A stretch of DNA of 64,000 nt from Novosphingobium sp. BW1 (lineage in GTDB: Bacteria; Pseudomonadota; Alphaproteobacteria; Sphingomonadales; Sphingomonadaceae): positions 1 to 64,000 of the forward strand of contig NZ_VIRF01000088.1 in the NCBI RefSeq assembly GCF_008107685.1, written 5' to 3'. Position numbers and translations under genes: made by a program. This document shows positions 43,260 to 61,966 of this stretch, piece by piece (the stretch's first letter is position 1; each line of letters starts with the position of its first letter). Below the pieces are notes generated by a model that ran no database searches, was not told the origin of the DNA, and saw only the letters and a program-made list of their open reading frames with translations.

Positions 43260-43286
43260 CTGATCTTTGTACCGTTGCCGGTCAGC

Positions 43287-44288
43287 TTACATGCCCGAAC
43301 CCGGACCGTAAGTGATTTCGACGCGGCGGTTCTGCAGTTCGCGGACGCCGTCGGCGGTGGGAACGCGCTGGTTCTCTTCGCCGAAGCCTTCGCTCGAGAT
43401 CGCCGTACCCGGGATGCCGTGCGAGGTCAGGTAAGCCTGAACCGAGTCGTTACGACGCTCGGAAAGACCCATGTTGTAGGTCTTGGCGCCCGACGAGTCG
43501 GTGTAGCCAGCGAGCATGATCGGAACGTTGTCGCAGTTGCCGTAAGCCGTGATCGCGCTGTCGAGGACCGTGGCGGCCTCAGGCGTGATGTCCGAGCTGT
43601 CCCAATCGAAGAACACGATGTACGGGCCCTTGTTGCAGACAACCTGCGGCGGCGGCGGCGGCGGCGGAGCCGCTTCCTCACCGAAGTTGTAGCTGATGGT
43701 GCCCATCAGCGAGTGCGAACGCCAGCGGGTTTCCAGGCTGTCGCCTGCCGTGGTCACCAGATCGATGTTGTCAGCGTTGAAGAAGCGATACTTCAGGCCG
43801 ACATCGACATGGTTCGAAAGCGGAGCGCGAACACCCGCGAGAACCTGCCATGCGAAGCCCGTGTCGCTGTCGTCAACGAGATCGTAGCTGACGCGTGCGA
43901 CACCGGCGCCACCGCCGACAAAGCCCTGGAGGCCGTCGTCGGGACCGAAGTCGAGAAGGCCGTTGACCATGAACGACAGCGCATTGGCGTCGCCGAGGTA
44001 TGCAGCCGGACCAGCGTAATCGACATAGTTGTCGACGCTAGCTTCGCGGTAGCTGGCTTCGGTTTCGAGACGGAATGCCCCGAAGTCGTAGCCAACCACG
44101 CCACCGCCATCAAAGCCGGTGTTGAAGTCGAACTGGCCAACGTTGTCGACACCATTGATGTCAGCGTCAGCATCTTCGACGATCATGGCGCCGAAATCGA
44201 GCTCGACATACCATGCGCCATCGCGCGCGAGCGCGGGAGTGGCGATAGCTGTCGAAGCCAGCGCCAGTCCAATGACGAGTTTCCTCAT
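43287..44288 (-). CDS. OmpA-family outer membrane protein
   Basis: A 333-residue protein with a signal peptide (residues 1-21, cleaved near ALARDG). The first 200 mature residues form an eight-stranded OmpA-like barrel, with alternating aromatic strands such as WYVELDFGAMIVED and GLKYRFFNADNIDL. A poly-Pro linker (APPPPPPPQ) follows. The C-terminal OmpA domain (YIVFFDWDSSDITPEA, GYTDSSGAKTYN, LSERRNDSVQAYL, NRRVEITYG) binds peptidoglycan. It likely anchors the envelope and is abundant. A strong terminator follows. Its upstream region (44289-44479) is AT-rich. Confidence 0.92.
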   Translation of the reverse strand: MRKLVIGLALASTAIATPALARDGAWYVELDFGAMIVEDADADINGVDNVGQFDFNTGFDGGGVVGYDFGAFRLETEASYREASVDNYVDYAGPAAYLGDANALSFMVNGLLDFGPDDGLQGFVGGGAGVARVSYDLVDDSDTGFAWQVLAGVRAPLSNHVDVGLKYRFFNADNIDLVTTAGDSLETRWRSHSLMGTISYNFGEEAAPPPPPPPQVVCNKGPYIVFFDWDSSDITPEAATVLDSAITAYGNCDNVPIMLAGYTDSSGAKTYNMGLSERRNDSVQAYLTSHGIPGTAISSEGFGEENQRVPTADGVRELQNRRVEITYGPGSGM

Positions 44289-44479
44289 ACGTTTCCCCTA
44301 CTGATAGAGATTTGGAGCCACCGAGTGCGAAGAGTCTCTAACCCTTCAACAATCTGCGCGCAAGCGCACATTGCGGACCACTGTTGCAAGAATGTCACGC
44401 CGGAAAGGGTCGTTGGCCGCGCATCGCTACCGCAGCGGTAATTTTGCATTGCCCCTTTGCCCTCGTCCTTGGTTGCCCA

Positions 44480-44938
44480 TCAAGCCCCTGGGAGAATGCC
44501 CAGGATCTGCAGGGCCGAGACCAATTGCGTGACCGCGGCCCTTGCTTCGATGTCAACCACCGCCCCTCCGTTTGGTTCCTGAACACTTTGCGTTTTTTTC
44601 CAGCCTGCCTGGAAAAATCGTTCCTGTGCAGCGGCTATGTCGTAAATACGCAGACCATCCCGGGGCGGCACGAAGAGCCATTGCCCCCCCTGCCTGCAGG
44701 CCAAGGATTCGTCGTGGCCCGCCCATTCGCCTGTGGCGCCTGCGCCGATCAGCCAGGCTTGCCCATCTTCGGCAGTGGCAGGGGGTGTTGCAGCTACACC
44801 CTCGACCGTGGTGTGCAGCAAGGCGTCGAGACGAAAAAGGGCCTCGTTGATAAAAAATTCCTTCTGCGCCTGCCCCTGAAAAAGCAGCGGCAAGGTGTAG
44901 CGGGGGCTGGCGGCATTAAAGGTAACCGAGTCTGTCAT
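44480..44938 (-). CDS. DUF2793 protein at the end of the GTA cluster
   Basis: A 152-residue protein with the DUF2793 pattern: RYTLPLLFQGQAQKEFFINE at the N-terminus, TAEDGQAWLIGAGATGEWAG and QWLFVPPRDGLRIYD in the middle. This domain occurs in phage and GTA-associated genes near the tail end and is thought to lie at the fibre or receptor-binding end. The C-terminal 30 residues are a helical tail. It begins 45 bases after the tail-tip gene and is the last gene of the block. It has no counterpart named in the R. capsulatus g1-g15 set, so it may supply specificity to this lineage. Confidence 0.75.
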   Translation of the reverse strand: MTDSVTFNAASPRYTLPLLFQGQAQKEFFINEALFRLDALLHTTVEGVAATPPATAEDGQAWLIGAGATGEWAGHDESLACRQGGQWLFVPPRDGLRIYDIAAAQERFFQAGWKKTQSVQEPNGGAVVDIEARAAVTQLVSALQILGILPGA

Positions 44939-44983: not shown

Positions 44984-47182
44984 TCAGGCCGGCTCGAGAG
45001 TGCCCAGGAGGAGGGCCGGGGAGAGGGCGTGGGAGCCTGCCTGGCGCACGTGCAACTGCGCTGTGTTGGCAGCTTCGCCGAGAGTGGCGGCCATCGCCGG
45101 TGAAATCTCGATCCGGGGCTCCTGGACCTGCCAGGAGGCCAGTGGCTGTTCGGGGTTCCCCAGAGTCAGGAGGTAGATCTCGGTCTCCTCCACCAGCGGA
45201 ACGTCGAGTGTGTCGGCCCAGCGCCATGCGCCGCGCGCGCGGCGTGTCCAGGTAAAGCGGACGGTTCCATCGGGAAGGCGCGTGCGGCGCGGATGGACCG
45301 GGGCGAGCGGACGCTGTGTGATGCCATCAAGGTGCACCTTGGTGCGTACCGGTGCGGCATCGCCGCGCCCCAGTGCGACGACCTCGCGCTCCGCTGCGCT
45401 GCCCAGAAGAGCTGCGTCGAGGGGGCGGATGGCGGTGTCGAGAAGGGCAAAGGGCTCGCCCGTGGCATGGCCCGCCAGGCCAGCCTCGCTGCCAGCGAGG
45501 CCGCGCAGGAAGCCGGAGAGCCGCCATGAGCCAGGGCCTATCAGGTTCGCCTCGGCGAACTGGACAAGTTCTTCGCCAACAAGCGCGAGATTGACGCCTT
45601 GGGCGAGTTCGGCCGTGTTCGCTCCACTCAAAACCATTGCGGGATCAGGAAGGGTGACATCGAGCCAGGACGTCCGGTCGAGCAGAAGCAAACTGGCTGG
45701 GGCGAGAGCATTGGTGGTAACCCCCATCAGGGCCCGCGTCCGTCCGGTCGAGCCGAGCGGTTCCAGCGCTCCGCTGCCGGGATCGGCATAGAGCGCGGCG
45801 CCCGGCCAGCCTGCGCTGGAGGAGGAGGCCGCTACGTGGGGCCGCGGTGCGGCGCTGTGCGCGCTGGCGCTGTCCAAGGGAAGTTCGAACGCCACCAATT
45901 GGGTTTCGCCCGGGGGCAGGTCCACGGGAGGGGCATAGCGACCCGAGGTCCCGGTCAGAGGAGTGGTATCCAGTGCTGCTGTGGGCAGGCGGCGCTCCAA
46001 CTCCAGCTCGACGCCCGCCTCGCACCACTCCCAGGCGCGCACGCGCCATGTGCCGGAATGTTCCGGTAGGCGCACTTCGACGCCCGGCGCAATGGCGGGA
46101 TCGAGTTCGGTCGTGCGCCAGGCAATCGTATCGCGTGCGCGCTCCGCACGCCGGTGCGCACGGTGGATCAGGCGGGCGGCACTGACTGCATCGAGGCTCG
46201 CGGGCAGGTCGATGCCGACTGGCGCGCCTGGGGCGGGACGCCCGGCAACGCGCTGCACTCCGGGCAGGTAGTCCCGATCCTGGTCGTAGTAGCGAAGGAG
46301 TGCAAGCGGGCTTGGTGCGGCTTCGCGGCGGCTCCTGGCAAAGCCGCTCCGCGCGCCGAACCCGTCCTGGTCCTCGGGCACGGCGGCAGCGCCGAGTGTC
46401 TTCATTGCGCCCGTAGCGCTTTCCTGGCGCAAGATCAGGGTCTCGCCCGAGGCGTCGGTGTCGAGGGGGAAGACCGCGTCGAGCGCCTGAAGGCTTTCCA
46501 CCACCGGACCTGAACAGCTGAAGCCTGTCAGTTCCGGCAGCTGGGCGCTGGTCTCGCAGGCCTCGAGCGCGTCGTCGAGGATATCCTGCAGGTGGACCGT
46601 ATCGCCCGCGAAGACTTCGAAGGTCAGGCCAGGAATACGGTTGTAGAAGTCGGCGAGCTGCAGATCCTCGAAAACGACGTAGGCAAGGCCACGATAGGCG
46701 GGGCAGCTTTGTGTACCCTCGGCGCTGGCAAGCAGGGGGTCGAGGGGCTGGTCCCCGCGTCCTGTGTGAACGCGCACGGTGCCGCCGGCCTTGAGGTCCC
46801 CCTGCGCGCCGCGCAGCAGTTTGCCGTCAGCCCAGATACGCCCAATGCCCTCAATCGGACGGCTGGCAAGCGCAACGGCGAAGCTTGCACTATACGAGTA
46901 GGTGGAAAGGGCAGGGGAACCCTTGCCGGTGCCCACTGTCTCGCTGTGTTCGGTGAGTTCGGTGGCCCAGATCATGCTGCCCGCGACGCGCATCGCGCCG
47001 TAGTGGCGGGGGAGGACCTCGCCATAGGTCGAGCGCGTCGCATCGAGTTCGCTCAGGCGGGGTCCCTGGCGGGACGAGGCAAAGAGCGCGCCGTCGATCT
47101 GGCGTCCGACAAGCGAACCGATGGCTCCGCCAACGGGACCGGCAAGGGCCGTGCCCGCCGCGCTGAAGACAAGTGTGGCCAT
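44984..47182 (-). CDS. GTA tail-tip protein (g15-like), without the TIM-barrel part
   Basis: A 732-residue tail protein. The N-terminal FSAAGTALAGPVGGAIGSLV and GPRLSELDATRSTYGEVLPR match the start of GTA and siphophage tip proteins. The middle holds the phage-tail domain (YRGLAYVVFEDLQLADFYNR; FEVFAGDTVHLQDILDDAL). In R. capsulatus g15 is about 1,300 residues and carries a glycoside-hydrolase/TIM-like domain; that region is absent here. The ATG at 47182 lies upstream of a conserved start, 26 bases after the peptidase gene. It should form the tip contacting the outer membrane. Confidence 0.85.
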   Translation of the reverse strand: MATLVFSAAGTALAGPVGGAIGSLVGRQIDGALFASSRQGPRLSELDATRSTYGEVLPRHYGAMRVAGSMIWATELTEHSETVGTGKGSPALSTYSYSASFAVALASRPIEGIGRIWADGKLLRGAQGDLKAGGTVRVHTGRGDQPLDPLLASAEGTQSCPAYRGLAYVVFEDLQLADFYNRIPGLTFEVFAGDTVHLQDILDDALEACETSAQLPELTGFSCSGPVVESLQALDAVFPLDTDASGETLILRQESATGAMKTLGAAAVPEDQDGFGARSGFARSRREAAPSPLALLRYYDQDRDYLPGVQRVAGRPAPGAPVGIDLPASLDAVSAARLIHRAHRRAERARDTIAWRTTELDPAIAPGVEVRLPEHSGTWRVRAWEWCEAGVELELERRLPTAALDTTPLTGTSGRYAPPVDLPPGETQLVAFELPLDSASAHSAAPRPHVAASSSSAGWPGAALYADPGSGALEPLGSTGRTRALMGVTTNALAPASLLLLDRTSWLDVTLPDPAMVLSGANTAELAQGVNLALVGEELVQFAEANLIGPGSWRLSGFLRGLAGSEAGLAGHATGEPFALLDTAIRPLDAALLGSAAEREVVALGRGDAAPVRTKVHLDGITQRPLAPVHPRRTRLPDGTVRFTWTRRARGAWRWADTLDVPLVEETEIYLLTLGNPEQPLASWQVQEPRIEISPAMAATLGEAANTAQLHVRQAGSHALSPALLLGTLEPA

Positions 47183-47207: not shown

Positions 47208-47648
47208 TCAGGAGGAGAGAGAGGGAAGGCGCCAGGCACCAAGCTGCCGCCAGGAGGCAGGCAGCGGACCCTCGACGATGCGGCGGAGGCCCGCATGGGC
47301 ATGGATCGCGATGTTGCTGTCGGGCGCGCTGTGGATGAGGAAATGGTATTGGCATGTACAGGTGCGGACCATCGCGATGTCTCCGGGCGCTGGCTTGCCA
47401 AGAGCTGGGTGCAGTCCGGCGGCAGCGAGAATGCTCCCGGCATCGGGGGGCTGCTCGGAGCGCAGCGTATAGCGCGCCGGTAGTGCGAGTGGCCGGTCCA
47501 GTCTCGCCAATGCGGCGCCGATGAGGCCTGCGCAGTCCAGTCCCGTCGCCGGATTACGCCCGCATAGTCGGAAGGGCGTGCCTACGAGAGCGCGCGCGGC
47601 TTCGATCAGGGCGGCAGGAGTAGAAGCGAGGTGCGTGGCGCGGGTCAC
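47208..47648 (-). CDS. GTA NlpC/P60 cell-wall peptidase (g14-like)
   Basis: A 146-residue peptidase. The catalytic Cys39 is in NPATGLDCAGLIGAAL and the catalytic His in FLIHSAPDSNIAIHAHAG; the GD before it (KPAPGDIAMV) is typical. It would cut peptidoglycan peptides to let DNA through the recipient wall. The start is GTG at 47648 in a GTGA overlap with the hub gene's stop, so it is coupled. No signal peptide; it is carried in the particle. Confidence 0.88.
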   Translation of the reverse strand: MTRATHLASTPAALIEAARALVGTPFRLCGRNPATGLDCAGLIGAALARLDRPLALPARYTLRSEQPPDAGSILAAAGLHPALGKPAPGDIAMVRTCTCQYHFLIHSAPDSNIAIHAHAGLRRIVEGPLPASWRQLGAWRLPSLSS

Positions 47649-48466
47649 AGGGCGGAAGGGTAACGCTGAAGCAGGTCGTTGCCGGGCAGGTGCGGCTCGC
47701 CCCTGAAATTGATGGCGTTGGCAAAGCGGGTGGAGCAGGTGTTCAGCGTGTGGTCGCAGCCCTCGCGCAGGCGCACGGGTGTGCCTGGCAAGGGAGCCGG
47801 CTCCATCGCTTGGTCGAGCACCAGCGCGCCCTCAGCGGTCACGCCGAGAATGGTGACGATCTGGCCCGTGCGTGCGCCATCGAGCCAGCGCAGGGTGCCG
47901 CCCGTAAACAGGACAGGATCGGTGAGGCTCGCAGGCGTGACGCTATTTTCCTCTTCGTTGGCATCGAGGATGTGCGTCTCGGTTTCGAAGCGACGCGCGC
48001 TGAGGTTGCAGCCAGGTCCTGCAAATTCCGCGCGGCACGAAGGGCTGGTGCGCGGCAGGGTGTCGCGCGCGAGTTCGCTCTTGCGCGAGGAAAGCTGAGC
48101 CTCGAAGCCGCCGTCGCTTTCGAGGATGGTGCCAAGGCTTCCGGTGTAGAGCAGGTGGTGCTCGAAGGTTTCCCAGTCGACAAGGCCAATACGTACCCCT
48201 GCGCCGTCGAAGCGACCCTGCTCAAGATCCTCCTGGGTGATCGAACCATGGGTGATGGCCCCGCGCACGTCGGCGCTGTCCGGTTCGAACCCGGCTGAAC
48301 GGCGGATCGAGGAGGGCAGCATTCCGGGCGAGGCGCGGTGGAGGACCCCATCGAACCACAAGTCCGCATCGTGGGTGGTGAAACCCAGAGTGACGCCGTC
48401 GCGGCGCAGGATGCGCCAAAAAAGGGCTACGGTTTCAAGCTCCTCGGAAAACCAGGTGCGCATCAC
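47645..48466 (-). CDS. GTA tail hub protein, DUF2163 (g13-like)
   Basis: A 273-residue protein of the DUF2163/phage_BR0599 type. VALFWRILRRDGVTLGFTTH, GMLPSSIRRSAGFEPDSADV and the Cys-rich block RTSPSCRAEFAGPGCNLSAR are conserved. The C-terminal LREGCDHTLNTCSTRFANAI and NFRGEPHLPGND motif carries the metal-binding cysteines seen in this family, which hold an iron-sulfur-like or zinc site in the R. capsulatus particle. It overlaps the DUF2460 gene by ATGA and the peptidase gene by GTGA. Confidence 0.88.
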   Translation of the reverse strand: MMRTWFSEELETVALFWRILRRDGVTLGFTTHDADLWFDGVLHRASPGMLPSSIRRSAGFEPDSADVRGAITHGSITQEDLEQGRFDGAGVRIGLVDWETFEHHLLYTGSLGTILESDGGFEAQLSSRKSELARDTLPRTSPSCRAEFAGPGCNLSARRFETETHILDANEEENSVTPASLTDPVLFTGGTLRWLDGARTGQIVTILGVTAEGALVLDQAMEPAPLPGTPVRLREGCDHTLNTCSTRFANAINFRGEPHLPGNDLLQRYPSAL

Positions 48467-50811
48467 ATGGCCTCCCGGATTTCGACGATGGGCACGCTGG
48501 GAGCCTCGCCGGCGGCGAACGAGGAGCCGGAAATTTCGAGCTGGTCATCGGCAAAACGCACGGGCACATCGAAGAGGAAGCCGGCGCGTACCACGCTTCC
48601 TGCTGGAGGCGCTTCGTCGAAGGTGATCACGCCGCCAGGCAAAAGGGTCCAGTTGCCCTTCTGGACCACGCCATCGAGCGAGACGAGCACGCTTGCGGCA
48701 TCGGGCCGGGTAATCCGGCGCACTTGCAGGGCCTCGCCTTCGCCATAGCACTTGAGAAGCGCGAAATCGGCGCGCAGGCCATCTCCCTCTCCCAGTTCCT
48801 GGTCGAGCTCGGTGGGGGTGTCGACCATGCTGGCCGAGCTGAAGTCGCTGGGATCGCGCAGGCGAAAGCCACGCGCGGGACCACGGCGAGCACGGAAGAA
48901 GGCGATGAGCGTGCCCAGTTCGGCTTCCGAGCGCACGCCTGGCCCCACGTCGAAGCGCAGGCGGGCATTGGCCCAGAGGCTGTTGCGGCGCTCGAAGCCC
49001 GAAGCGGTCACCGAGACGCTGGTCGAGAATTCGGGGGTCACGGTGGCATCGCGGCCGAGCGCGAGAGGATAGAGGATATCGTCGAAGGCCTGCATTGCCT
49101 CGTCTCCGGTCGGGGGGGGAGGGGGCGCGGGAAGGCGCACGTAGCCATCGCGCATGATCTGGGGCAGCGCCCAGACAATGATCTCGTGGGGACTGCGGGC
49201 CTGGGCTTCGTCGATGCCGTCATCGATCCGCCGCCACAGGTCGGCGTCGTCAGGATCAAGGACGAAGCCCGCGAGGTAGTCCTGCTCTGTCGGGGGATAG
49301 CCCAGGCGTGTGTTCACCGTCTCGTAGGCGCGGCGGCGCGCGGCATCGCGCCCCTCAGTGAGCCAGTCGTAGTCCTCGACCTGGAGACGGTCGAAGGCCG
49401 GGGCCGCCCAGCCAACGGGCAAATTGGCGCGGTAGAGTTCGGGCATCGAAGGGGCGAGGATCGTGGGGGTGAAGACGAGCGCCAGCGCTTCGACGGGATC
49501 GGGCGCGACGGCGGCGCGAACTGCGCTCACCAGCGCGGCGGTGGATTGCGCGAGCAGGGCTCCGGCGGCATCGAGCAGGTCGGTCTGTGCGGGAGTGAGG
49601 GGCTCGCGCATGTCCGGGATGGTCACGGGATCGCCGCCCAGAGCTGCGGACGATGCCGCATCGTAGAGGCAGATGCTTCCCTCTGCGGTCGTCCACCACC
49701 AGGGCTCGCCGACCTGAAAGCGGACCTCGCACCCCGCGTCCGCCATCAGCTGGGCAAAGGAACCGCCGACCAATTGCAGCCAGGTCATTGCCTGGGCGTG
49801 GGCGGGGGAGAGCAACGAGGACGGTGGCTCCCAGCCGGTGAGCGCCGGATTGCCCAGATGGTCGCGCTGCATCCAGTCATCCGGGCAGTGCTGGGCGAAA
49901 AGTTCGTAGGAAAGGGACGCGATCGGGCGAAATCCTTGCGCGGCGCACGCGGCGAAGAAGGCCGCATGCCAGGTGCGGGTGGGGGTGTTGAGCGGATCGC
50001 CGGACGTCGAGACCAGAAAGTCGCCCGAGGCCTGGGCCAGGCGGAAGAAATGGCTCATGCCCACGTAGTGCAGGACCGTGCCGCGATAGCCGAGCTGGCG
50101 TATGGTGCGCACGAGCCGGGCCGGGGTCTGGACGCCGTCGTCATCATAGCCGGTCGCGATGGCAAGGCCGTGCGGGGGCAGGAAAACGTCGCCGATCTCC
50201 AGCATGGCGCGCTCGCCATCGCAGCTGATCGCGCTCACTTCGATCCAGCCTTCCGCCTCGGCGGGGAGCGGGGTTTCGCTGCCGGCAACGTAGCCCGGCG
50301 GCGCGAAGGAGATGAACATCCGGTCGATATCACCCGGCCACACCGGATCGGAGTCCGCCGGAAGAGAGAAGCCACCTTCAAGCTGCGAGAAGGGCAGCGT
50401 AATCACCGCATCCTCTGGGCTGCCCTGCGCATAGTTCCAGAGACGCACGTACCAGGTGCGCGCCGTCCCTTGCGAGTCGCGCCCCTCGATGGTCAGCGTC
50501 GGGCCATTGACCGCATCGAGCGCCAGCACGCCGCCCGAACGCCAGCGGAAGCTGAGGTGCGTGTGGGAGTAGTCACGGTCGGTGCGGTAAGCGAGGAGCG
50601 GGTGGTCGAGCGTGTCCTCGCTTGCCCAGATGAGACCGCCAAGGTCGATCTCGCGCAGGAAACTGGCCTCGACGCGCAGGGAATCGGGGCCAGTCGAGAG
50701 GATTGTCGCGACCATGGGGCGGGGGTAGTTGACGGTCCAGAAGCGTGGATCGAAGCGCTGGATCCAGTCACTGTCCTGTCCTTTGCGACTGTCGGCAAGC
50801 CAGAAGGCCAT
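48463..50811 (-). CDS. GTA distal-tail protein (DUF2460, g12-like) with a large N-terminal extension
   Basis: A 782-residue protein. The last 210 residues (from about 572, MQAFDDILYPLALGRDATVT) are the DUF2460 distal-tail domain that alone makes up R. capsulatus g12. The first 570 residues are extra: MAFWLADSRKGQDSDWIQRF, a sandwich-like region with RTWYVRLWNYAQGSPEDAVI, then a segment with PASLSYELF-type strands, QVGEPWWWTT and MPELYRANLPVGWAAPAF, resembling a glycoside-hydrolase TIM barrel. A Pro-rich hinge (PAPPPPPTGD) joins them. The R. capsulatus barrel sits on g15 instead. It starts 41 bases after the tape-measure gene. Confidence 0.8.
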   Translation of the reverse strand: MAFWLADSRKGQDSDWIQRFDPRFWTVNYPRPMVATILSTGPDSLRVEASFLREIDLGGLIWASEDTLDHPLLAYRTDRDYSHTHLSFRWRSGGVLALDAVNGPTLTIEGRDSQGTARTWYVRLWNYAQGSPEDAVITLPFSQLEGGFSLPADSDPVWPGDIDRMFISFAPPGYVAGSETPLPAEAEGWIEVSAISCDGERAMLEIGDVFLPPHGLAIATGYDDDGVQTPARLVRTIRQLGYRGTVLHYVGMSHFFRLAQASGDFLVSTSGDPLNTPTRTWHAAFFAACAAQGFRPIASLSYELFAQHCPDDWMQRDHLGNPALTGWEPPSSLLSPAHAQAMTWLQLVGGSFAQLMADAGCEVRFQVGEPWWWTTAEGSICLYDAASSAALGGDPVTIPDMREPLTPAQTDLLDAAGALLAQSTAALVSAVRAAVAPDPVEALALVFTPTILAPSMPELYRANLPVGWAAPAFDRLQVEDYDWLTEGRDAARRRAYETVNTRLGYPPTEQDYLAGFVLDPDDADLWRRIDDGIDEAQARSPHEIIVWALPQIMRDGYVRLPAPPPPPTGDEAMQAFDDILYPLALGRDATVTPEFSTSVSVTASGFERRNSLWANARLRFDVGPGVRSEAELGTLIAFFRARRGPARGFRLRDPSDFSSASMVDTPTELDQELGEGDGLRADFALLKCYGEGEALQVRRITRPDAASVLVSLDGVVQKGNWTLLPGGVITFDEAPPAGSVVRAGFLFDVPVRFADDQLEISGSSFAAGEAPSVPIVEIREAM

Positions 50812-50852: not shown

Positions 50853-51416
50853 TCAGGAGGCGGTGAGCGCACGGCGTACAGAGCTTGCAATCTGGCGCGA
50901 GGAGCGCTGCAAGGCGCGCGGGGTGCTCGCGCCGCGCTCCCCCGCAAGCGAGATGGCCACGCGTACGTCGCGCGGCGGCTGGCGGTTTTCTGCGGTCTCG
51001 ATGCGGCCCGCCGAAGTGGGCACGAAAACTTCCGGCCCCCGTTCGCCCACGAGATAGCCCTGGCCAGGCGCCACGTTCCCGCCGGTCGCCCGGCCAGGCA
51101 GCCCGAGCAGCCCCGGGACCAGACCGGCCAGGGCGCCGCCCGCGCCGCTGCCGCCACTAACCGCGCCGATCAGCGTGGTCATGCCTTGCGCGGCAATGGC
51201 GTCAAAGGCGGAGAAGGCGGCACTCTTGAGATCCTCGAAGCCCAGGCTACCGCGGCGGATCGCCCCGGTCAGACTGCGCTCGAAGCGATCGCCTGCGCGG
51301 GCAAAGCCATCGCCAAGGCCGGTGTCGATCTCGCCGCGCAGGACCGCGATGTCGCGGGCAAAGGCCTGGGTGCTCGCGCGTACCTCGATCAGGAGTTCGT
51401 CCATGTCATCGCTCAT
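50853..51416 (-). CDS. GTA tail tape measure protein (g11-like)
   Basis: A short 187-residue tape measure. The N-terminal DELLIEVRASTQAFARDIAV is a helical segment, the middle is Gly/Ala-rich (GAVSGGSGAGGALAGLVPGL), and the C-terminal YLVGERGPEVFVPTSAGRIE is the phage tape-measure end motif. It sets tail length; being this short, the tail should be short. The start overlaps the previous gene by 11 bases. The conserved end and position support the call despite its low sequence complexity. Confidence 0.75.
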   Translation of the reverse strand: MSDDMDELLIEVRASTQAFARDIAVLRGEIDTGLGDGFARAGDRFERSLTGAIRRGSLGFEDLKSAAFSAFDAIAAQGMTTLIGAVSGGSGAGGALAGLVPGLLGLPGRATGGNVAPGQGYLVGERGPEVFVPTSAGRIETAENRQPPRDVRVAISLAGERGASTPRALQRSSRQIASSVRRALTAS

Positions 51417-51612
51417 TGTCTCGCTCCATCATGGCGTTGAGGGTGGCGCGGTCGAGCCCTTGGGAAGGGGCATCGGTCGCGGGCTGGAGGATCGTCGCCA
51501 ATTCCTCGGGGGTGGCATTCCAGAACTCATGTGGTCGCCAGCCCAGCAGGCGGGCGGAAAGGGCGCACAGGCGGGTGGCACCGGCCCCGAACCGCACCGG
51601 GGTCTCGCTCAC
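51406..51612 (-). CDS. Small tail assembly chaperone (g10.1-like)
   Basis: A 68-residue protein starting with GTG at 51612, in a GTGA overlap with the preceding gene. LGWRPHEFWNATPEELATIL and LDRATLNAMMERDNER are the conserved blocks of the DUF2376/phage tail chaperone family that lies between the tube protein and tape measure. It probably helps fold the tape measure together with the 104-residue protein upstream. The small size and overlap make it easy to miss. Confidence 0.75.
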   Translation of the reverse strand: MSETPVRFGAGATRLCALSARLLGWRPHEFWNATPEELATILQPATDAPSQGLDRATLNAMMERDNER

Positions 51613-51923
51613 ACCGTGCCCTTGAGGATCTGGCCGAGCAGGGTGCGTAACGGGACGGCACAGCGGGCCAGACCCAGCCGGGCGACAGCCTCGCCCACGG
51701 CTTCGCGCGGGAAGGCCGTGGCCGGCTGGAGGCAGTGCCAGAACAGCGTCGCCACTTCGCCCAGCCGCAGTTGGCCCTCGCCCGCCCGTTCGACCAGGGC
51801 ATAGAGCGGCCCCAGTTCCTCTTCGGCGGCAACCAGCGCGGCGAACGAGGGGCGCAAGACATGCGCCTGACCTGCGATCTCCAGCGTGGCTTCGCCGCGC
51901 AAGGGGTTGGCAGGCGCGCTCAT
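51609..51923 (-). CDS. GTA tail assembly chaperone (g10-like)
   Basis: A 104-residue protein of the gene transfer agent family. NPLRGEATLEIAGQAHVLRP followed by FAALVAAEEELGPLYALVER matches the family, named from the R. capsulatus particle. It overlaps the tail-tube gene by ATGA and leads into the 68-residue protein by GTGA. In siphophages two overlapping chaperone genes in this position are often linked by frameshifting; no slippery heptamer was spotted, and the 4-base overlap suggests reinitiation instead. Confidence 0.8.
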   Translation of the reverse strand: MSAPANPLRGEATLEIAGQAHVLRPSFAALVAAEEELGPLYALVERAGEGQLRLGEVATLFWHCLQPATAFPREAVGEAVARLGLARCAVPLRTLLGQILKGTV

Positions 51924-52327
51924 GCGGCCGCGATCGCGCCCGAGCTTTCCAGCTGGAGCGTGTAGTTGCGCTCACCGTTGAAATCGCCCGCATAGTCCAG
52001 GCGCTGGACGAGGAAGCGGCCACGCAGCTTCTCGCCGTCCTCGAAGCTCAGTTCGTAGTCGTCAAGTGTGCCTTCCATCGCGTTGACCCGGATGCGCGCT
52101 TCGGCCGCGCTGCCCAGGAAGATGCCCGCCGCGCTGACCGAGACCGTGCGGGTCCCTGCGCCCGAGAGCAGCTCACGCCAGCCCCCGCTGCCCTTGTGGG
52201 TAGTGACCACTGTCTCGCCGGTTACCGACATCTGCGTGGTGCGCAGGCCCGCGACGGTCTGATAGGTCGGCGGATTGGCGCCGTCGGAAATCTTGAGCAG
52301 GAACGCACTGCCTTTCTGGGCGGTCAT
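51920..52327 (-). CDS. GTA major tail tube protein (g9-like)
   Basis: A 135-residue protein of the TP901-1-like tail tube family. MTAQKGSAFLLKISDGANPP, AGLRTTQMSVTGETVVTTHK and LDDYELSFEDGEKLRGRFLV are typical tube strands, and YTLQLESSGAIAAA closes the beta-sandwich. It forms stacked hexameric rings of the tail. A 24-base gap separates it from the tail-terminator gene, and it overlaps the next gene by ATGA. Confidence 0.85.
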   Translation of the reverse strand: MTAQKGSAFLLKISDGANPPTYQTVAGLRTTQMSVTGETVVTTHKGSGGWRELLSGAGTRTVSVSAAGIFLGSAAEARIRVNAMEGTLDDYELSFEDGEKLRGRFLVQRLDYAGDFNGERNYTLQLESSGAIAAA

Positions 52328-53664: not shown

Positions 53665-54807
53665 TCAGGCCGCGATCTTGAGCAGCTTGATCGCGTCGGA
53701 ATCGAGCACCTGGCCGCCCACGCGCTTGGTCGCGTAGAAGTGGACGAAAGGCTTGTTTGTGAACGGATCGCGCAGGATCGCGGTCGCGCTGCGCTCGGCG
53801 ATGAGGTAGCCCGCGCGGAAGTTGCCAAAGGCGATCGGGGTGGCGTTCGCGGCCACGTCGGGCATGTCCGAGGCCTCGACGACTGGGTAGCCGAGCAGGC
53901 GGTCGGGCTGGCCATCGACAAGGCCGGGCTGCCACAGGAAGGCGCCGTCGCTGGTCTTGAGCTTGCGCACCAGGGCCAGGGTCTGCGCGTTCATCACCCA
54001 GCTTGCGCCCTGGCGATGCCCGGCCTTGAGCGCGTGGACGAGATCGATCAGCTTGAGCTCCGGGTTTGCGCCAAGCGTGCTGGCGTTGCCCGAGACAACA
54101 TGCTGGAGCGTGCCGAACTGGCGCGTGGCATCGCCCGCCGTGCTGGTCGTGCCGGTGATGAAGCCGCGGGGCTGGTTGGTGCCCGAACCCGATACGAAGG
54201 CAGCCCCTTCGGCGCGCGCGAACTCGGTCGCGATCTCGTCGGCGAGCCAGGTGGGCAAGTCGAAGCCGGCATCGTCGAGCATGGCCTGACTGGCGGCCGG
54301 GTTGGCATAGAGTTCACCCGTCGGCGGGGCGATCTCGGCGAAGCTGGGCGAGTCTGTTTCGGGGCGCGCGGCGGTCTCGCTGACCCAGCCCGATGCGGTG
54401 CCGCCGGTCGAGATCAGCTTGCGGTAGCCCGCCGAGCCGGTCTGGACGACCTGCGCGATCGAACGGATCGGGCTGACCGCCTTGAGGCGCGCGGCGATGA
54501 GTGCATCGATCTCGCGCGGGACGGCATAGCCGCCGTCGGCGGGGACGGCGCCGGAGATCGACTTCCACTCGGTCTCGCGCCCGGCGCGCAGGTAGCCATC
54601 GACGAAGCCCTTGAGTTCCAGGCTCGGCGCGCCTTCGGCGGAGCCGGCGATGACAGGGCGGGCCGCGGCACGGCTGACGCGATCGAGGCGCGCCTTCACC
54701 TCGTCAACATCGCCGCGCAGAGCCTCGACGCTCTGTTCGGTCGCATCCATGCGGGTGACGAGGTCAAAGGACGAATCGAGCGATTCGGCCGGGACGGAAT
54801 TTTCCAT
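53665..54807 (-). CDS. GTA major capsid protein, HK97 fold (g5-like)
   Basis: A 380-residue capsid protein of the HK97 family. Residues 1-60 look like the coiled-coil delta domain (FDLVTRMDATEQSVEALRGD) removed by the protease. The mature part shows SGAVPADGGYAVPREIDALI, YRKLISTGGTASGWVSETAA and SGSGTNQPRGFITG, standard capsid blocks. The C-terminal FYATKRVGGQVLDSDAIKLL closes the fold. It follows the protease gene by 85 bases with its own ribosome site (AAAGGTG), consistent with high expression. Confidence 0.92.
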   Translation of the reverse strand: MENSVPAESLDSSFDLVTRMDATEQSVEALRGDVDEVKARLDRVSRAAARPVIAGSAEGAPSLELKGFVDGYLRAGRETEWKSISGAVPADGGYAVPREIDALIAARLKAVSPIRSIAQVVQTGSAGYRKLISTGGTASGWVSETAARPETDSPSFAEIAPPTGELYANPAASQAMLDDAGFDLPTWLADEIATEFARAEGAAFVSGSGTNQPRGFITGTTSTAGDATRQFGTLQHVVSGNASTLGANPELKLIDLVHALKAGHRQGASWVMNAQTLALVRKLKTSDGAFLWQPGLVDGQPDRLLGYPVVEASDMPDVAANATPIAFGNFRAGYLIAERSATAILRDPFTNKPFVHFYATKRVGGQVLDSDAIKLLKIAA

Positions 54808-54892: not shown

Positions 54893-55330
54893 TCAGGAGA
54901 CGAGGTGGACGCGCGCGCCGTGCTGCATGGGGTGGGTGACGAGGCTCACCTCGAAGAGGTCGACGGCGAGTAACTCGCGGCCTGCAGGCCCGGTTCGGCT
55001 GGTGCGGGCCCGGTAGCCGAAGGAGAGGCCGGTCACGTTCCCGCGCTTCAGGGCAAGGCCAGGGGCGGCCTCGGGCCGGTCGAGCGCGGCAATCACGCGA
55101 AGGCCCCGGGCATCCTCGGAAACGGCCTCGATCCAACCGATGCGCAGGTCCGCGCGGTGTTGCCACAGGAGCGGCAACGGGTCCTCGCGCGCGGCCAGGG
55201 TGCGGGCGAAGGCGCCGCGTCGGATCGTGTCGCGGCCGGCATCGGGTGTGTCGAAGAGGGCTGCGTAGCCTGCAAAGCGCAAGGTGGAGCTGCGCGCGGG
55301 CGCGTGGGTAAACGGGGCAGGCGCGATCAC
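54893..55330 (-). CDS. GTA prohead protease, HK97 family (g4-like)
   Basis: A 145-residue serine protease that cleaves the capsid delta domain. RFAGYAALFDTPDAGRDTIR, GAFARTLAAREDPLPLLWQH and VTGLSFGYRARTSRT, then LFEVSLVTHPMQ are conserved; the catalytic His is in LLWQHRADL and Ser in GLSFGY. The start is GTG at 55330 in a GTGA overlap with the preceding small gene. Length is typical for GTA proteases, which are shorter than phage ones. Confidence 0.88.
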   Translation of the reverse strand: MIAPAPFTHAPARSSTLRFAGYAALFDTPDAGRDTIRRGAFARTLAAREDPLPLLWQHRADLRIGWIEAVSEDARGLRVIAALDRPEAAPGLALKRGNVTGLSFGYRARTSRTGPAGRELLAVDLFEVSLVTHPMQHGARVHLVS

Positions 55331-55635
55331 CGCAGCATCTCTGTTGCGCCGAGCCGGACTGCAAGGCCGAGCAAGAGCAGGGCGAGGAACCCGCGCACCG
55401 CCCAGCCGACCGCGGCGTTGCGCGCGCTGGTCTTGGCATCGCGCCAGGCCCGCAGCAATTCGCGCAGTTCGCAGAGGTCCTCGGGTGCAGTGTCGTCATC
55501 GAGGCCGATGAGGGCCAGCATGCGCTGTGCGCCCACTTCGCTCGCCTCTTCGACGATCGCGCGCAGCGTCACCAGGTCCGAACCTTCGGCAGCGGCCTGC
55601 GCGATCAGGCCGACCAGCATATCCTTCTGATTCAT
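55327..55635 (-). CDS. Small GTA protein (g3.5-like, DUF6127)
   Basis: A 102-residue protein between portal and protease, the place of R. capsulatus g3.5. DMLVGLIAQAAAEGSDLVTL and RAIVEEASEVGAQRMLALIG are helical; the C-terminus contains one membrane-like segment (AVRGFLALLLLGLAVRLGA). It overlaps both neighbours by four bases (ATGA and GTGA). No function is established; a membrane-contact role is only suggested by the hydrophobic segment. Confidence 0.75.
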   Translation of the reverse strand: MNQKDMLVGLIAQAAAEGSDLVTLRAIVEEASEVGAQRMLALIGLDDDTAPEDLCELRELLRAWRDAKTSARNAAVGWAVRGFLALLLLGLAVRLGATEMLR

Positions 55636-56828
55636 GATTTGTTCTCCGGATGGCCAGTCGTGGCGGTGGGCAAAGTGGCGCGCGAGGACGAACGGGGCGA
55701 TAGGCCGAGCAGGGCGCGCTTCTCGTCCACGTCGAGGAAATCGGCGTCGGAGACCTGCGCCCAGAGCCGCTCGCGGTCCTCGGCCAGCGCAGGCACTCGG
55801 TCGAGGTCGATGGCGAGATCGGCTTCGGGAAACCAGGGGCTGAGGGCTTCGCTCAGGCCGGCCAGCAGCTTGGCGGCTAGCGGCAGGAGGGTCAGGCGCC
55901 AGAGCGCGCGGTTGGCCTCGCGGTAGTTGGCATAGGTCGCATCGCCGGGCAGGCCCAGCAGCATTGGGGGAACCCCGAAGGCGAGCGCTACGTCGCGCGC
56001 GGCGGCAGCTTTCAGTGTTGCGAAGTCCATGTCCGCCGGGCTCATCGCCATGGCCTGCCAGGTAAGCCCGCCTTCGAGCAGCATGGGGCGTCCAGCGTTA
56101 CCCACGCCCGAAAAGGCGCTGGAAAGCTCGCTCTTGAGGCGTTCGAACTGGTCGGGGCTGAGGGGCGTGCCCTCGCCCGTGTCGTAGACCAGCGCGCCCG
56201 AGGGGCGGGCCGCGTTCTCGAGCAGCTGGCGGTTCCATTCCGAGGCTGCGTTGTGGGTGGCGACGGCCTGATCGGCGGCACACAGGCAGCCCGCGCCGTA
56301 ATGGTCGTCGCCGGGATGGAAGTGGCGGATATGGACGAGGTTGGGCGAGGCGTCCTCATCCAGAGCGGGGATCGTAATGCGCTTGCCCGCGACCTCGTAG
56401 CTGTAGGCCGTTGGCCAGCCGTCGCTACCGGCAAGGACGGTGATGCGCTCGGGGCGCAGGGCGAAGAGCTCGACAGGGTAGCCACGCGCATCCTTCAGGA
56501 TCTGTACGTAGGCATTGCCGTGAAGAAGCAGCTGCGCGGCGAGCGTTTCGAGCAGCGACTGGCCCGCGCTGGTCGCGTTCACCAGCCGGGCGAGGGCGGG
56601 GTCGGCTGGCTTGAGCGGCGCGCCCGCGATGCCTTCGGCCACTAGGCGCACGGCGCGCTGGGCGACCGGGTTCTCGAGGTAGGCGCGCTGGACGGAGCCG
56701 GTGTACTCATAGGGCGCGCGGCCCGAGCCTCCCTCGGCGAAGTACCAGGGCGAGGCGGCGCCGCGCGCCAGCGGCACGCGCGCGGTTTCACCCTTGAAGG
56801 CGGCGGCAAGCGTATCGAGGAAGGACAT
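55632..56828 (-). CDS. GTA portal protein, HK97 family (g3-like)
   Basis: A 398-residue portal. YTGSVQRAYLENPVAQRAVR, LLETLAAQLLLHGNAYVQIL and GVPPMLLGLPGDATYANYRE are the classic HK97 portal segments; FPEADLAIDLDRVPALAEDR is near the wing/crown end. It forms the dodecameric ring through which DNA enters. The ATG at 56828 follows a small hairpin gap after the large terminase; the stop overlaps the next gene by ATGA. Confidence 0.9.
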   Translation of the reverse strand: MSFLDTLAAAFKGETARVPLARGAASPWYFAEGGSGRAPYEYTGSVQRAYLENPVAQRAVRLVAEGIAGAPLKPADPALARLVNATSAGQSLLETLAAQLLLHGNAYVQILKDARGYPVELFALRPERITVLAGSDGWPTAYSYEVAGKRITIPALDEDASPNLVHIRHFHPGDDHYGAGCLCAADQAVATHNAASEWNRQLLENAARPSGALVYDTGEGTPLSPDQFERLKSELSSAFSGVGNAGRPMLLEGGLTWQAMAMSPADMDFATLKAAAARDVALAFGVPPMLLGLPGDATYANYREANRALWRLTLLPLAAKLLAGLSEALSPWFPEADLAIDLDRVPALAEDRERLWAQVSDADFLDVDEKRALLGLSPRSSSRATLPTATTGHPENKS

Positions 56829-56914
56829 GACCGGCCTTTCTCCCGCAAGCGGGACAAGCAAAGAGATGGGAGGGGGAGGGGGCGGAAGGCCTGATGGAGA
56901 GGGCTCCCTCCGTA

Positions 56915-58237
56915 TCAGGCGAGGCGCACGCGCGGCTGCACGCTCTTGCCCAGAAGCAATTCGGTGAGTGCCCAGACCAGCGCATCGGCGCGGTCGGGCG
57001 AGCGGCCGGGACCCTGGTAGGTACCTCCGGCCAGAAGCCCGCACATCTCGTCCTCGAGATCGGGGAAGGTTCCCGCGTGACGTACCCGGCCCGCTTCGTA
57101 GAGCGCGGCAACAGGTTCGGCGCGGGCAACCTTGCCCCGGCTGGCATGGACGAGGCGCAAGGGGAGGGCGAAGTCTGCGGCGCGCAGGACGCTGGCGACC
57201 ATCGCGCCGCCCTGGTTGGCTTCGGCAATGACGCGTTCGGCCTGCCAGGCCGAGGCGGCGGTAGCGGCCGCACGGGCCCAGCGCTCGGGGCTGGCCTTGC
57301 GCACCGAGGCATCGGCGAGGACATGGGCACGGCCCGTCGAATCGAGACCCGCGACCACGATTCCGCAGGCATCGCCGCCTGCCGACGCGGGAGGGTCGAC
57401 CCCCACGACAACGCGTATGAGGTCGGTAGGTGAGGCTCCGCGGCAGGCTTCGAGGTGCGCGCGGCTCCACAGTGCGCCATCGATGTCGGCGAGAAGTTCG
57501 CCGTCGAGCTCCTGGCGACCCAGCTGACTTTGCCCGTAGGCGCGGCGCACGTGGGAGAGAAAGGTGGGCGGCAGGTTGGCCGCGTTGTCTTCGGTGCGGC
57601 CACGGGTAATGGCGAGCGTTTCGTCCGGTTCCGCAAGCAACCGGGTGACGAGGGGCACCGCGCGCGGCGTGGTAGTGGCGGCAAGCTGGGGGCGTTCACC
57701 CAGGCGCAGGCCCAGGACGAGGTTGTCGTAGGCGCGCACCGCGCGCTCGGAGGCATTGTCCCACTTGGCGATTTCGTCGCACCAGGCGTGGCTGTGCTGG
57801 GGACCGCGCAGGGATTCGGGCTCAGCGGCGGAGAACAGAAGGGCCTGTGCGCCATTGGGCCAGACGAGGCGGCGCAGCGAGGGTTCAAAGACAGGGCGGC
57901 GGCGCGCGGGGCAGATGGCAAGGAGGCCGCTCTCGCCCTCGACCATGACCGCGCGCACTTCGGGCAGGCTCGCGCCGACAAGGGCAATGCGGGCGTTCGG
58001 ATCGACCTCGGCAACGCTGCGCACCCATTCGGCCCCGGCGCGGGTCTTGCCAAAGCCGCGCCCGGCCATGATCAGCCAGGTCCGCCAGTCGCCGTCAGGG
58101 GCCAGCTGTTCGGGCCGCGCCCAGAGCTTCCAATGGGTTTCCAGTTCCTCGCGCTCGGCCTCGGTCAAGGCGCGCAGGACCTGGTGGCGGTGCTCGGGCG
58201 CCATGGCCAGGAGGATCTGGAGATGCTCACTGTGCAT
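56915..58237 (-). CDS. GTA large terminase (g2-like)
   Basis: A 440-residue packaging motor. Walker A IMAGRGFGKTRAGAEW is at about residues 56-71 and Walker B ends in CDE (SHAWCDEIAKWDNA). The C-terminal nuclease has DPPASAGGDACGIVV and DRADALVWALTELL, with the expected acidic residues. In GTAs this enzyme cuts headfuls of host DNA without a pac site. The ATG at 58237 overlaps the small terminase gene by 11 bases. All motifs are intact. Confidence 0.92.
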   Translation of the reverse strand: MHSEHLQILLAMAPEHRHQVLRALTEAEREELETHWKLWARPEQLAPDGDWRTWLIMAGRGFGKTRAGAEWVRSVAEVDPNARIALVGASLPEVRAVMVEGESGLLAICPARRRPVFEPSLRRLVWPNGAQALLFSAAEPESLRGPQHSHAWCDEIAKWDNASERAVRAYDNLVLGLRLGERPQLAATTTPRAVPLVTRLLAEPDETLAITRGRTEDNAANLPPTFLSHVRRAYGQSQLGRQELDGELLADIDGALWSRAHLEACRGASPTDLIRVVVGVDPPASAGGDACGIVVAGLDSTGRAHVLADASVRKASPERWARAAATAASAWQAERVIAEANQGGAMVASVLRAADFALPLRLVHASRGKVARAEPVAALYEAGRVRHAGTFPDLEDEMCGLLAGGTYQGPGRSPDRADALVWALTELLLGKSVQPRVRLA

Positions 58238-58739
58238 CGGACGTTCCTGCCTTGGGGATGGAGGGGGCCGCGTCAAAACTGCGGGCGCGCATCTTCTCGA
58301 TCTTGGCGTTGATGGAATCGAGAATGGCTTCGCTGTTGCGGTTCTCGACGATGGCACGCTGGCGGGCGGCGGATTCGCGGTGCGCGGTCAACAGGCGAAA
58401 GGCGGTGGCGTTGTCGAAAACGCGGGTGCCACGCTTCGCGCCCGTTGGCGGCTTGATCTCCCCTTCGCGCAGGCGCTGCAGGAGGGTCATTTCCAGGTGG
58501 TCGTAGCCCTCGCACAGGGCTTCCTGCCACTGGCAGTAGAATTCCGGATCATCGCGGCGCGCCTCGTAGGCGGTGGAGGAGGCAACCCCTGCCGCTTTGG
58601 CCGAGGCGCTGACGTTCGAGGTGGCCGCCAGTTCGGCCAGGAAGCGCCTGCGCCAGTTGCGCGGGGCCGCAGGCTTCTTGGCAGGGGCACGCGTCCGTTC
58701 CGGGCGCGCGCCACCTGCGGACGAGGTCGTGTCCGCCAT
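58227..58739 (-). CDS. GTA small terminase-like DNA-binding protein (g1-like)
   Basis: A 170-residue protein. A basic disordered start (PERTRAPAKKPAAPRNWRRR) leads to a helix-turn-helix (FLAELAATSNVSASAKAAGV, SSTAYEARRDDPEFYCQWQE), then an oligomerisation helix region. It is the first gene of the cluster, as g1 in R. capsulatus, now considered the small terminase. The conserved NAEAILDSINAKIEKMRAR-like tail (NRNSEAILDSINAKIEKMRA) follows. Its promoter is predicted at 58818-58846. Confidence 0.82.
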   Translation of the reverse strand: MADTTSSAGGARPERTRAPAKKPAAPRNWRRRFLAELAATSNVSASAKAAGVASSTAYEARRDDPEFYCQWQEALCEGYDHLEMTLLQRLREGEIKPPTGAKRGTRVFDNATAFRLLTAHRESAARQRAIVENRNSEAILDSINAKIEKMRARSFDAAPSIPKAGTSDAQ

Positions 58740-61566: not shown

Positions 61567-61577
61567 ACTGGTTTCTT

Positions 61578-61823
61578 TCAGCCCTGCAGCTTCATCACCG
61601 CATCGACGAGCTGGCCGAAGTTCTCGATCTCGGCCTGCTGATTCATCGAGATGATGATGTCGAATTCGTCCTCGATGGCGGCCACGAAGTCCATGACGGT
61701 CAGGCTGTCGAATTCCAGGTCGTCGGTGAAGCGCGTGGCGTCGGTGATCGCGACCTCCTTCTTGTTGAAGGGTTCGATCAGGGCGATGATGCGGGCCGAA
61801 ACGTCTTGGCGGTCCATGGTCAT
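61578..61823 (-). CDS. Acyl carrier protein paired with serine palmitoyltransferase
   Basis: An 81-residue acyl carrier protein. The phosphopantetheine serine sits in LEFDSLTVMDFVAAIEDEFD, the standard DSL motif with Asp-Ser-Leu. The helices are acidic and well matched to the family. Because it lies just upstream of spt and apart from the fatty-acid cluster, it is likely the dedicated AcpR-type carrier for sphingolipid synthesis. The ATG at 61823 follows GGAGTTATCA; a second ATG two codons later is weaker. Confidence 0.9.
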   Translation of the reverse strand: MTMDRQDVSARIIALIEPFNKKEVAITDATRFTDDLEFDSLTVMDFVAAIEDEFDIIISMNQQAEIENFGQLVDAVMKLQG

Positions 61824-61966
61824 TGATAACTCCGTAAGGTCCGGGGCGCTCTGTGGTCCGGAAATGCGGCGCAAAAGCGGCACGGGTGTAACATGTCAAG
61901 CGCGGCGGGACATAACGCACTCTTCTCAAGGGCAGGAGCGCGGGCGGTGTGGCCCAAGGGCCGCAC

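Follow-up and report, generated by a model that had tools for sequence, protein, structure and literature searches.

In the current study, a gene was characterised in a 64,000-nucleotide stretch of DNA from Novosphingobium sp. BW1 (contig NZ_VIRF01000088.1, positions 1 to 64,000; hereafter the window), where it forms part of a head-tail cluster resembling the gene transfer agent (GTA) of R. capsulatus (RcGTA). The gene, which begins with ATG and occupies the open reading frame (ORF) 48463-50811 on the minus strand, specifies a 782 amino acid (aa) protein in which a DUF2460 distal-tail (Dit) domain is preceded by a two-domain module (NCTSP) that Pfam names after the ‘non-contractile tail sheath’ of phage N4 and others. 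A first-pass annotation of the sequence had claimed a large additional domain on the DUF2460 protein without assigning a strand; the observation is hereby confirmed as genuine, on the minus strand, and fusion of the module to Dit is the rule, rather than a chance occurrence, in the order Sphingomonadales to which the window belongs. Taking together sequence, structural models and analogy with solved particles, it is probable that the Dit ring displays N4-sheath-type, glycan-directed modules in place of the barrels of the megatron (g15), where the hexameric state of the ring, the collar, the activity on glycan and the replacement itself are all predicted features.

A sheath-type module joined to the distal-tail domain

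The N-terminal portion of the protein consists of the strand-rich NCTSP_N (PF23844; residues 17-207, 50191..50763, on the minus strand as for all parts of the fused gene; Pfam E 2.1e-97) and TIM-barrel_NCTSP (PF23845; residues 212-557, 49141..50178; E 2.3e-166), which were detected in the expected order with 324.3 and 553.5 bits, respectively, against a curated cut-off of 27, and both of which are recovered in the structural model. A Pro-rich hinge (residues 558-576, 49084..49140), apparent from the sequence and from a low-confidence stretch of the model, leads into the DUF2460 domain (residues 577-779, 48475..49083; E 3.8e-72). The latter is full length (242.5 bits against a Pfam cut-off of 30.4), is also recognised by the NCBIfam model for the Rcc01695 distal-tail family (TIGR02217; residues 575-779, 200.8 bits against 136.65) and matches the distal-tail chains of R4C and RcGTA. 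These data bear out the first-pass placement of DUF2460 at the C-terminal end of the protein, behind a Pro-rich hinge. RcGTA g12 (Rcc01695) and the R4C Dit similarly possess a full-length DUF2460, but comprise only 210 and 214 aa, respectively, whereas approximately 570 residues are located ahead of this domain here. The closest named genome for the fused protein is that of Novosphingobium profundi (95% identity).

The fused protein was modelled using AlphaFold on an alignment of 64 fused homologues (63 of the 160 loci collected, plus the window), with a mean predicted local distance difference test (pLDDT) score of 89.4 and a predicted template modelling (pTM) score of 0.80. In this model NCTSP_N is read as a beta-sandwich, and the region that follows adopts an eight-stranded triosephosphate isomerase (TIM) barrel, as had been proposed from the sequence, with strands at residues 217-221, 245-249, 295-301, 363-368, 440-447, 475-479, 510-514 and 543-546. 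The GEPWWW block, on which that proposal had leaned, does belong to the barrel, occupying residues 368-373 at the end of strand 4. The pLDDT falls below 50 at residues 566-574 of the hinge, and residues 596-615 within DUF2460 represent a second low-confidence stretch.

Among solved structures the best match is gp64 of phage N4 (Z 29.6 and 31% identity, with a root-mean-square deviation of 2.3 Å over 297 residues), a second gp64 entry scoring Z 28.1 (2.3-2.4 Å over 297-298 residues for the two entries). These are followed by A4 beta-galactosidase (Z 23.6), the glycoside hydrolase domain of PgaB (Z of approximately 21 to a maximum of 22.5) and beta-amylases (at most 21.6). PgaB shares the barrel fold, but at approximately 10% identity, and since other glycoside hydrolase barrels score alike this likeness is not specific. 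In the Foldseek ranking N4 gp64 took first place and the distal-tail chain of R4C the third, and proteins of phages IMEAB3, Goslar and MJG were the top viral models by structure. The gp64:gp65 sheath of N4 (PDB 9lc0, 9yf4 and 9yf5) resembles the present module in that part of NCTSP_N is found in gp65 and in that the barrel carries the same invariant residues; it differs in that the barrel is distributed over two proteins, with gp65 containing many more domains, whereas here a single chain also bears a siphovirus-type ring domain. In N4 (L357) residues 374-416 of gp65 provide the first beta/alpha unit and residues 110-407 of gp64 the remainder.

Residues E303, E369, P370, W371-W373, D384, D474, E479 and Y481 are identical in all 64 rows of the barrel alignment, which includes N4, phi92, Loki and Lebethron and in which the window is present twice, while 33 columns are invariant among 15 barrels with 30-54% identity to that of the window. 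The acids E303, E369 and E479 are positioned at the ends of strands 3, 4 and 6 (on our own count of the strands). A catalytic assignment by sequence was dropped, as a profile search of the PDB recovered nothing but N4 chains above the noise level (E-values of 0.18 and 0.34 for the matches that followed).

Distribution of the module and architecture of the megatron

A domain-order survey of 128 genomes of the Sphingomonadales, such as the first-pass annotation had suggested, detected DUF2460 in 62, the NCTSP barrel in 59 and GTA_TIM in none. The barrel is located beside DUF2460 in every one of the 59 barrel-bearing genomes: in 55 all three domains are contained in one ORF, in three (L096, L100 and L119) a stop or frameshift interrupts the frame, and in the remaining one a contig end truncates the gene. 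The broken frames, which perhaps reflect loss of the GTA in some lineages, could be cited in favour of an assembly or annotation artefact or of a decaying prophage gene. However, this explanation has a negligible probability given the 55 genomes with a single uninterrupted ORF and given that, in a second collection, 77 of the best 80 loci match end to end (with overlap in species and stops in some). Moreover, the ratio of non-synonymous to synonymous substitution (dN/dS) of 0.07-0.25 across all three domains in six comparisons indicates purifying selection.

At the level of the class (289 genomes) DUF2460 was detected in 48 genomes (47 over the cut-off), NCTSP in four and GTA_TIM in 29, and at the level of the phylum (349 genomes) NCTSP exceeded the cut-off in 12, of which 11 belong to the family of the window and one (G284) to its class, with one weaker match below the cut-off. 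For the comparison of neighbourhoods, 113 DUF2460 loci and the window (114 in total) were examined and their domains called with purpose-built profiles; G393 (a match below the cut-off) and G014:C313 (a fragment) were left out, and phages Loki and Lebethron stand outside the class counts. NCTSP was found on the DUF2460 protein in 59 loci, on the hub protein in three and GTA_TIM within the megatron in 27, neither being present in 25, and at none of the 114 loci did NCTSP and GTA_TIM occur together. The loci are related and these counts are consequently not independent.

The distance that separates Phage-tail_3 from the N domain of the megatron follows the same division. It amounts to 85-105 aa in all 53 Dit-fused loci with a complete megatron and 98-100 aa in all three hub-fused loci, as compared to 563-828 aa in all 26 GTA_TIM loci so assessed. 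Among the 20 loci with neither barrel and a complete megatron it is 421-506 aa in 15 and 130-140 aa in five, the value for L195 being 412 or 140 depending on the count, since two N-domain matches are merged in one of these. Five further loci with neither barrel lack a complete megatron (L153, L172, L179, L180 and L196), although the genome of L196 carries GTA_TIM on another contig. L145, L192, L193 and L194 possess a distant DUF2460 and a short megatron gap, and the megatron ORFs of L192 and L194 are of approximately 1,700 aa. The gap of 421-506 aa represents a third kind of megatron insert, devoid of GTA_TIM (L083, L084, L147, L161, L164, L165, L168, L170, L175, L176, L181, L185, L188, L189 and L191); no Pfam match was obtained within it in the three proteins scanned, and by eye the insert gives the impression, in six sequences, of being strand-rich and beta-propeller-like.

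The megatron of the window (g15-like; 44984..47182, minus strand) contains the N domain, Phage-tail_3 and Rcc01698_C, with 90 residues between the first two. Its start corresponds to residue 88 of the longest ORF, resulting in a protein of 732 aa, and the NCBI megatron model matched in two stretches (376 bits against an equivalog cut-off of 800; the first of these covers profile positions 1-205). RcGTA g15 occupies the same position in its cluster and has these three domains in common, but is composed of 1304 aa and includes GTA_TIM. Profile searches located GTA_TIM (PF13547) neither in the fused protein, nor in the megatron, nor anywhere in the whole genome (G000). The shortness of the g15-like protein, noted in the first-pass annotation, and the lack of a GTA_TIM match elsewhere in the genome, on which that annotation had made its idea depend, thus hold.

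The module also occurs in phages: a tblastn search of 50,697 phage records with residues 12-560 produced matches in 322, of which 261 cover at least 80% of the query; 223 of the 322 are named as Escherichia phages, the rest including Acinetobacter phages and N4-like phages. The genes underlying these matches are labelled inconsistently, as ‘capsid and scaffold’, ‘tail fiber’, ‘adaptator’, ‘non-contractile tail sheath’ or ‘hypothetical’. Both NCTSP_N and the NCTSP barrel are present in gp17 of Acinetobacter phage Loki and CDS0014 of Pseudomonas phage Lebethron. In these phages the module gene directly follows the gene annotated as distal tail protein and a later gene of 815-820 aa weakly matches the megatron N domain; unlike the fused gene described here, the module has a gene of its own, the product of which comprises 895-900 aa and ends in an untyped C-terminal region, and no DUF2460 match was obtained in the annotated distal-tail proteins. 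A second Dit- or hub-like domain at the C-terminus of Loki gp17 was considered and rejected, as no significant match was obtained with profiles of DUF2460 or the hub, for which reason a phrog_6040 match extending to residue 760 was not taken as homology. A record described as ‘Bacteriophage sp.’ from human faeces (MT840053.1, L089) aligns with 83% of the fused protein (51% identity) and hence resembles a fragment of a Sphingomonadales GTA. These clusters are also represented in IMG/VR, where they are classed as viral contigs, and the best 80 loci therein (L277-L356) match most of the fused protein.

Proposed function, origin and alternative explanations

The arrangement that we favour is one in which an N4-sheath-type module, composed of the strand-rich domain and a TIM barrel with a conserved, active-site-like pocket, would be carried on a flexible hinge ahead of a complete DUF2460. 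The tail tube would be sealed by six DUF2460 domains, as in RcGTA and R4C, and the tip would be surrounded by a collar of six pendant sheath modules. There the modules may attach to, or cleave, a glycan of the envelope or matrix and stand in for the three megatron TIM barrels of RcGTA-type relatives. Six putative sugar-binding sites in the distal-tail proteins and three megatrons are described for RcGTA, in which the Dit N-terminus touches both hub and megatron and the peripheral megatron domain spans residues 230-744 (PMC7296036); an N-terminal module would therefore emerge at this contact, near the usual site of the megatron barrel. The R4C tip is built from six copies of Dit and three each of the hub and megatron proteins (PMC10276861). 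In phage N4 the sheath is arranged six-fold round the tube, with gp65 acting in receptor binding (PMC12633501, preprint); the receptor of this phage, NfrA, is similar to pores through which exopolysaccharide is exported, for example PgaA (PMC8669472). TspA, a tailspike of the Rhodobacterales, docks on the tail tube, a Dit insertion domain and the megatron peripheral loop, and its authors report that they did not find it outside the Rhodobacterales (PMC13420450, preprint), which would fit the loss of the megatron peripheral loop here.

Several observations weigh against this proposal. No invariant acid follows strand 7 of the NCTSP barrel among the 15 barrels with 30-54% identity, a position at which retaining enzymes of clan GH-A keep a catalytic acid, and the barrel may thus only bind glycan. 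Few independent changes underlie the association of NCTSP with a short megatron, the loci being related. Furthermore, L145 and L192-L194 have neither a module nor a long megatron insert, indicating that a large module is not universal. Finally, the receptor-binding part of the phiAxp-3 sheath protein, given as residues 795-1195 (PMC5862860), is located by N4 numbering outside the NCTSP matches.

The lack of a strand-7 acid is equally what would be expected if the module were a structural spacer or adsorption shield, that is, a dead barrel retained solely for assembly, and the description of N4 gp64:gp65 as a sheath round the tube (PMC12633501) could be read in the same manner. We nevertheless hold this to be unlikely, as the pocket acids and the WWW motif have remained invariant at 30-54% identity across N4, phi92, Loki, Lebethron and the GTAs, which goes beyond the needs of a spacer. 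Considerably less probable again is the explanation advanced in the first-pass annotation, namely that the g15 barrel itself had moved from the megatron to the adjacent Dit protein. Within one cluster the barrel is indeed carried by Dit and missing from the megatron, and both barrels are of the TIM type, with 22-25 residues aligning weakly near strand 4 or 6, as those of unrelated TIM barrels may. However, no significant similarity between the NCTSP and GTA_TIM profiles was detected using hhalign (probabilities of 2.0%, E 0.024, and 0.4%, E 0.14), whereas a control, the 94-residue flank common to two megatron insert types, aligned at 99%. The peripheral GTA_TIM domain, modelled from 41 of 80 GTA_TIM loci fetched (pLDDT 80.7), best matches the R4C megatron in the PDB (Z 35.4), followed by GH113 beta-mannanases (Z 24.5-26.4) and then a drop to 17, in contrast to the N4 gp64, A4 beta-galactosidase and PgaB matches of the NCTSP barrel. 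N4 gp64 is not among the 50 matches listed for the GTA_TIM model, nor are RcGTA or R4C megatron chains among the 50 listed for NCTSP, absences which in themselves exclude nothing. The invariant acids of GTA_TIM, E257, D334 and E442, lie where strands 4, 6 and 7, respectively, terminate (again on our own count); as the weak hhalign alignment places D334 against the strand-6 acids of NCTSP, the difference at strand 7 alone was used. The occurrence of NCTSP in the 322 phage records, N4-like podophages and large phi92-like phages included, likewise counts against an origin in g15. Transfer of the g15 barrel was consequently rejected on the hhalign probabilities and the different closest solved structures; of the first-pass interpretation, the barrel fold and the absence of GTA_TIM from megatron and genome stand, and the transfer does not. 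From profiles and models we conclude that NCTSP and GTA_TIM represent separate families of barrel and that g15 was not the source of any transfer, although both TIM barrels may descend from a remote common ancestor.

A relocation between the neighbouring hub and Dit genes, the direction of which is unproved, is likely on the sequence comparisons and constitutes a better version of the first-pass idea, given that the hub-fused set is sister to the Dit-fused set; replacement combined with such a relocation fits the data better than transfer out of g15. In the three hub-fused loci (L081, L082 and L186) the same module is present and the megatron is equally short, but the module is attached to the hub, and DUF2460 is found by itself, in ORFs that measure 211-216 aa. 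Two genomes, G013 (L081, L111) and G026 (L082, L109), each contain a Dit-fused GTA-like cluster in addition to a separate hub-fused prophage-like cluster. In a quick tree of 108 loci built on six module-free domains, the Dit-fused set forms one clade (Shimodaira-Hasegawa-like approximate likelihood ratio test, SH-aLRT, 97), which is sister to the hub-fused clade (90); the four classes require six changes, with GTA_TIM loci falling in two groups. The specific scenario in which NCTSP was ancestrally situated at the hub N-terminus and was rearranged ahead of DUF2460 in the ancestor of the Sphingomonadales GTAs, after or together with the loss of any megatron insert, would be compatible with the collar arrangement favoured above, and we rate it as a serious candidate with a little under an even chance of being correct. 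Besides the existence of NCTSP-hub genes and the tree topology, it draws on the position of the Loki and Lebethron module gene right after that annotated as distal tail protein. Against it, the sister support is below 95, the root lies on a weak, long branch, hub cases number only three and the direction is not fixed. In addition, the barrel tree (in which L096, with its fused gene broken by a stop, carries the label ‘phage’) is compatible with a single origin of the Dit fusions but leaves the branch uniting them unsupported, and the C-terminus of the Loki and Lebethron proteins matches neither the hub nor the DUF2460 profile.

A more general scheme may be entertained, though we consider it doubtful: that RcGTA-like tips each hold one large glycan-directed module, of unrelated kinds on three scaffolds, with the NCTSP barrel replacing the detachable tailspike TspA. 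The scaffolds would tentatively be the trimeric megatron for GTA_TIM or the propeller-like insert, the trimeric hub for NCTSP and the hexameric Dit, again for NCTSP. Within this scheme it is conceivable, if rather improbable, that the Sphingomonadales NCTSP hydrolyses or binds exopolysaccharide, in the way the N4 sheath would engage the NfrA pore and its glycan.

Detailed understanding of how GTA particles meet the envelope of the recipient derives mainly from R. capsulatus. The present data suggest that the particles of the Sphingomonadales approach cells by means of a different surface device; these GTAs appear to employ an N4-sheath-type module at another site of the tip, the copy number being six rather than three should the ring be hexameric. 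This would link GTA tips to the receptor-binding sheath of podoviruses, and would render the choice of receptor or glycan testable through deletion of a single domain. The difference in length between g12 and g15, which was published without a cause being given (PMC7360931), is explained by the presence of NCTSP on Dit together with a megatron devoid of GTA_TIM. The domains themselves are already contained in Pfam and PHROGs. Our literature search found no account of what the length difference is, and no earlier description either of the fusion or of any Sphingomonadales prophage whose tail contains a glycoside hydrolase, although Viswanathan 2017, on the Sphingomonadales prophage, could mention one.

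The surrounding gene cluster

Judged from its genes alone, the locus is an RcGTA-like head-tail cluster, all members of which are encoded on the minus strand. Downstream of the fused gene, and with its start overlapping the stop of the latter, is the gene for the g13-like hub protein (47645..48466; PF09931 and PF09356, TIGR02218), followed by a g14-like NlpC/P60-type peptidase (47208..47648; a weak match, below cut-offs), the megatron and a DUF2793 protein of tail-fibre type, identified by domain match (44480..44938); DUF2793 has been designated the GTA tail fibre (PMC10883770). Upstream are a tail assembly chaperone match (51406..52023; Phage_TAC_6 at residues 151-201 of the ORF), the tail tube protein (51920..52327; PF06199), the major capsid protein (53665..54807; PF05065), the prohead protease (54893..55330; PF04586), the portal protein (longest ORF 55632..57470; PF04860 at residues 268-589 of 612) and a terminase-like protein (56915..58357), the evidence for which is weak, its NCBIfam matches being under the cut-off. 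The cluster therefore has a portal, protease, capsid, tail tube, Dit, hub and megatron, in addition to the weakly matched peptidase and terminase.

The flank on the megatron side was surveyed in the 53 longest of 80 loci. A gene that appears from its sequence to be queC-like adjoins the cluster in 36 of the 53, as does the ORF at 43275-44441 in 45 of them. Close to the head end of the GTA cluster, a serine palmitoyltransferase gene is located at 60328-61929 on the minus strand.

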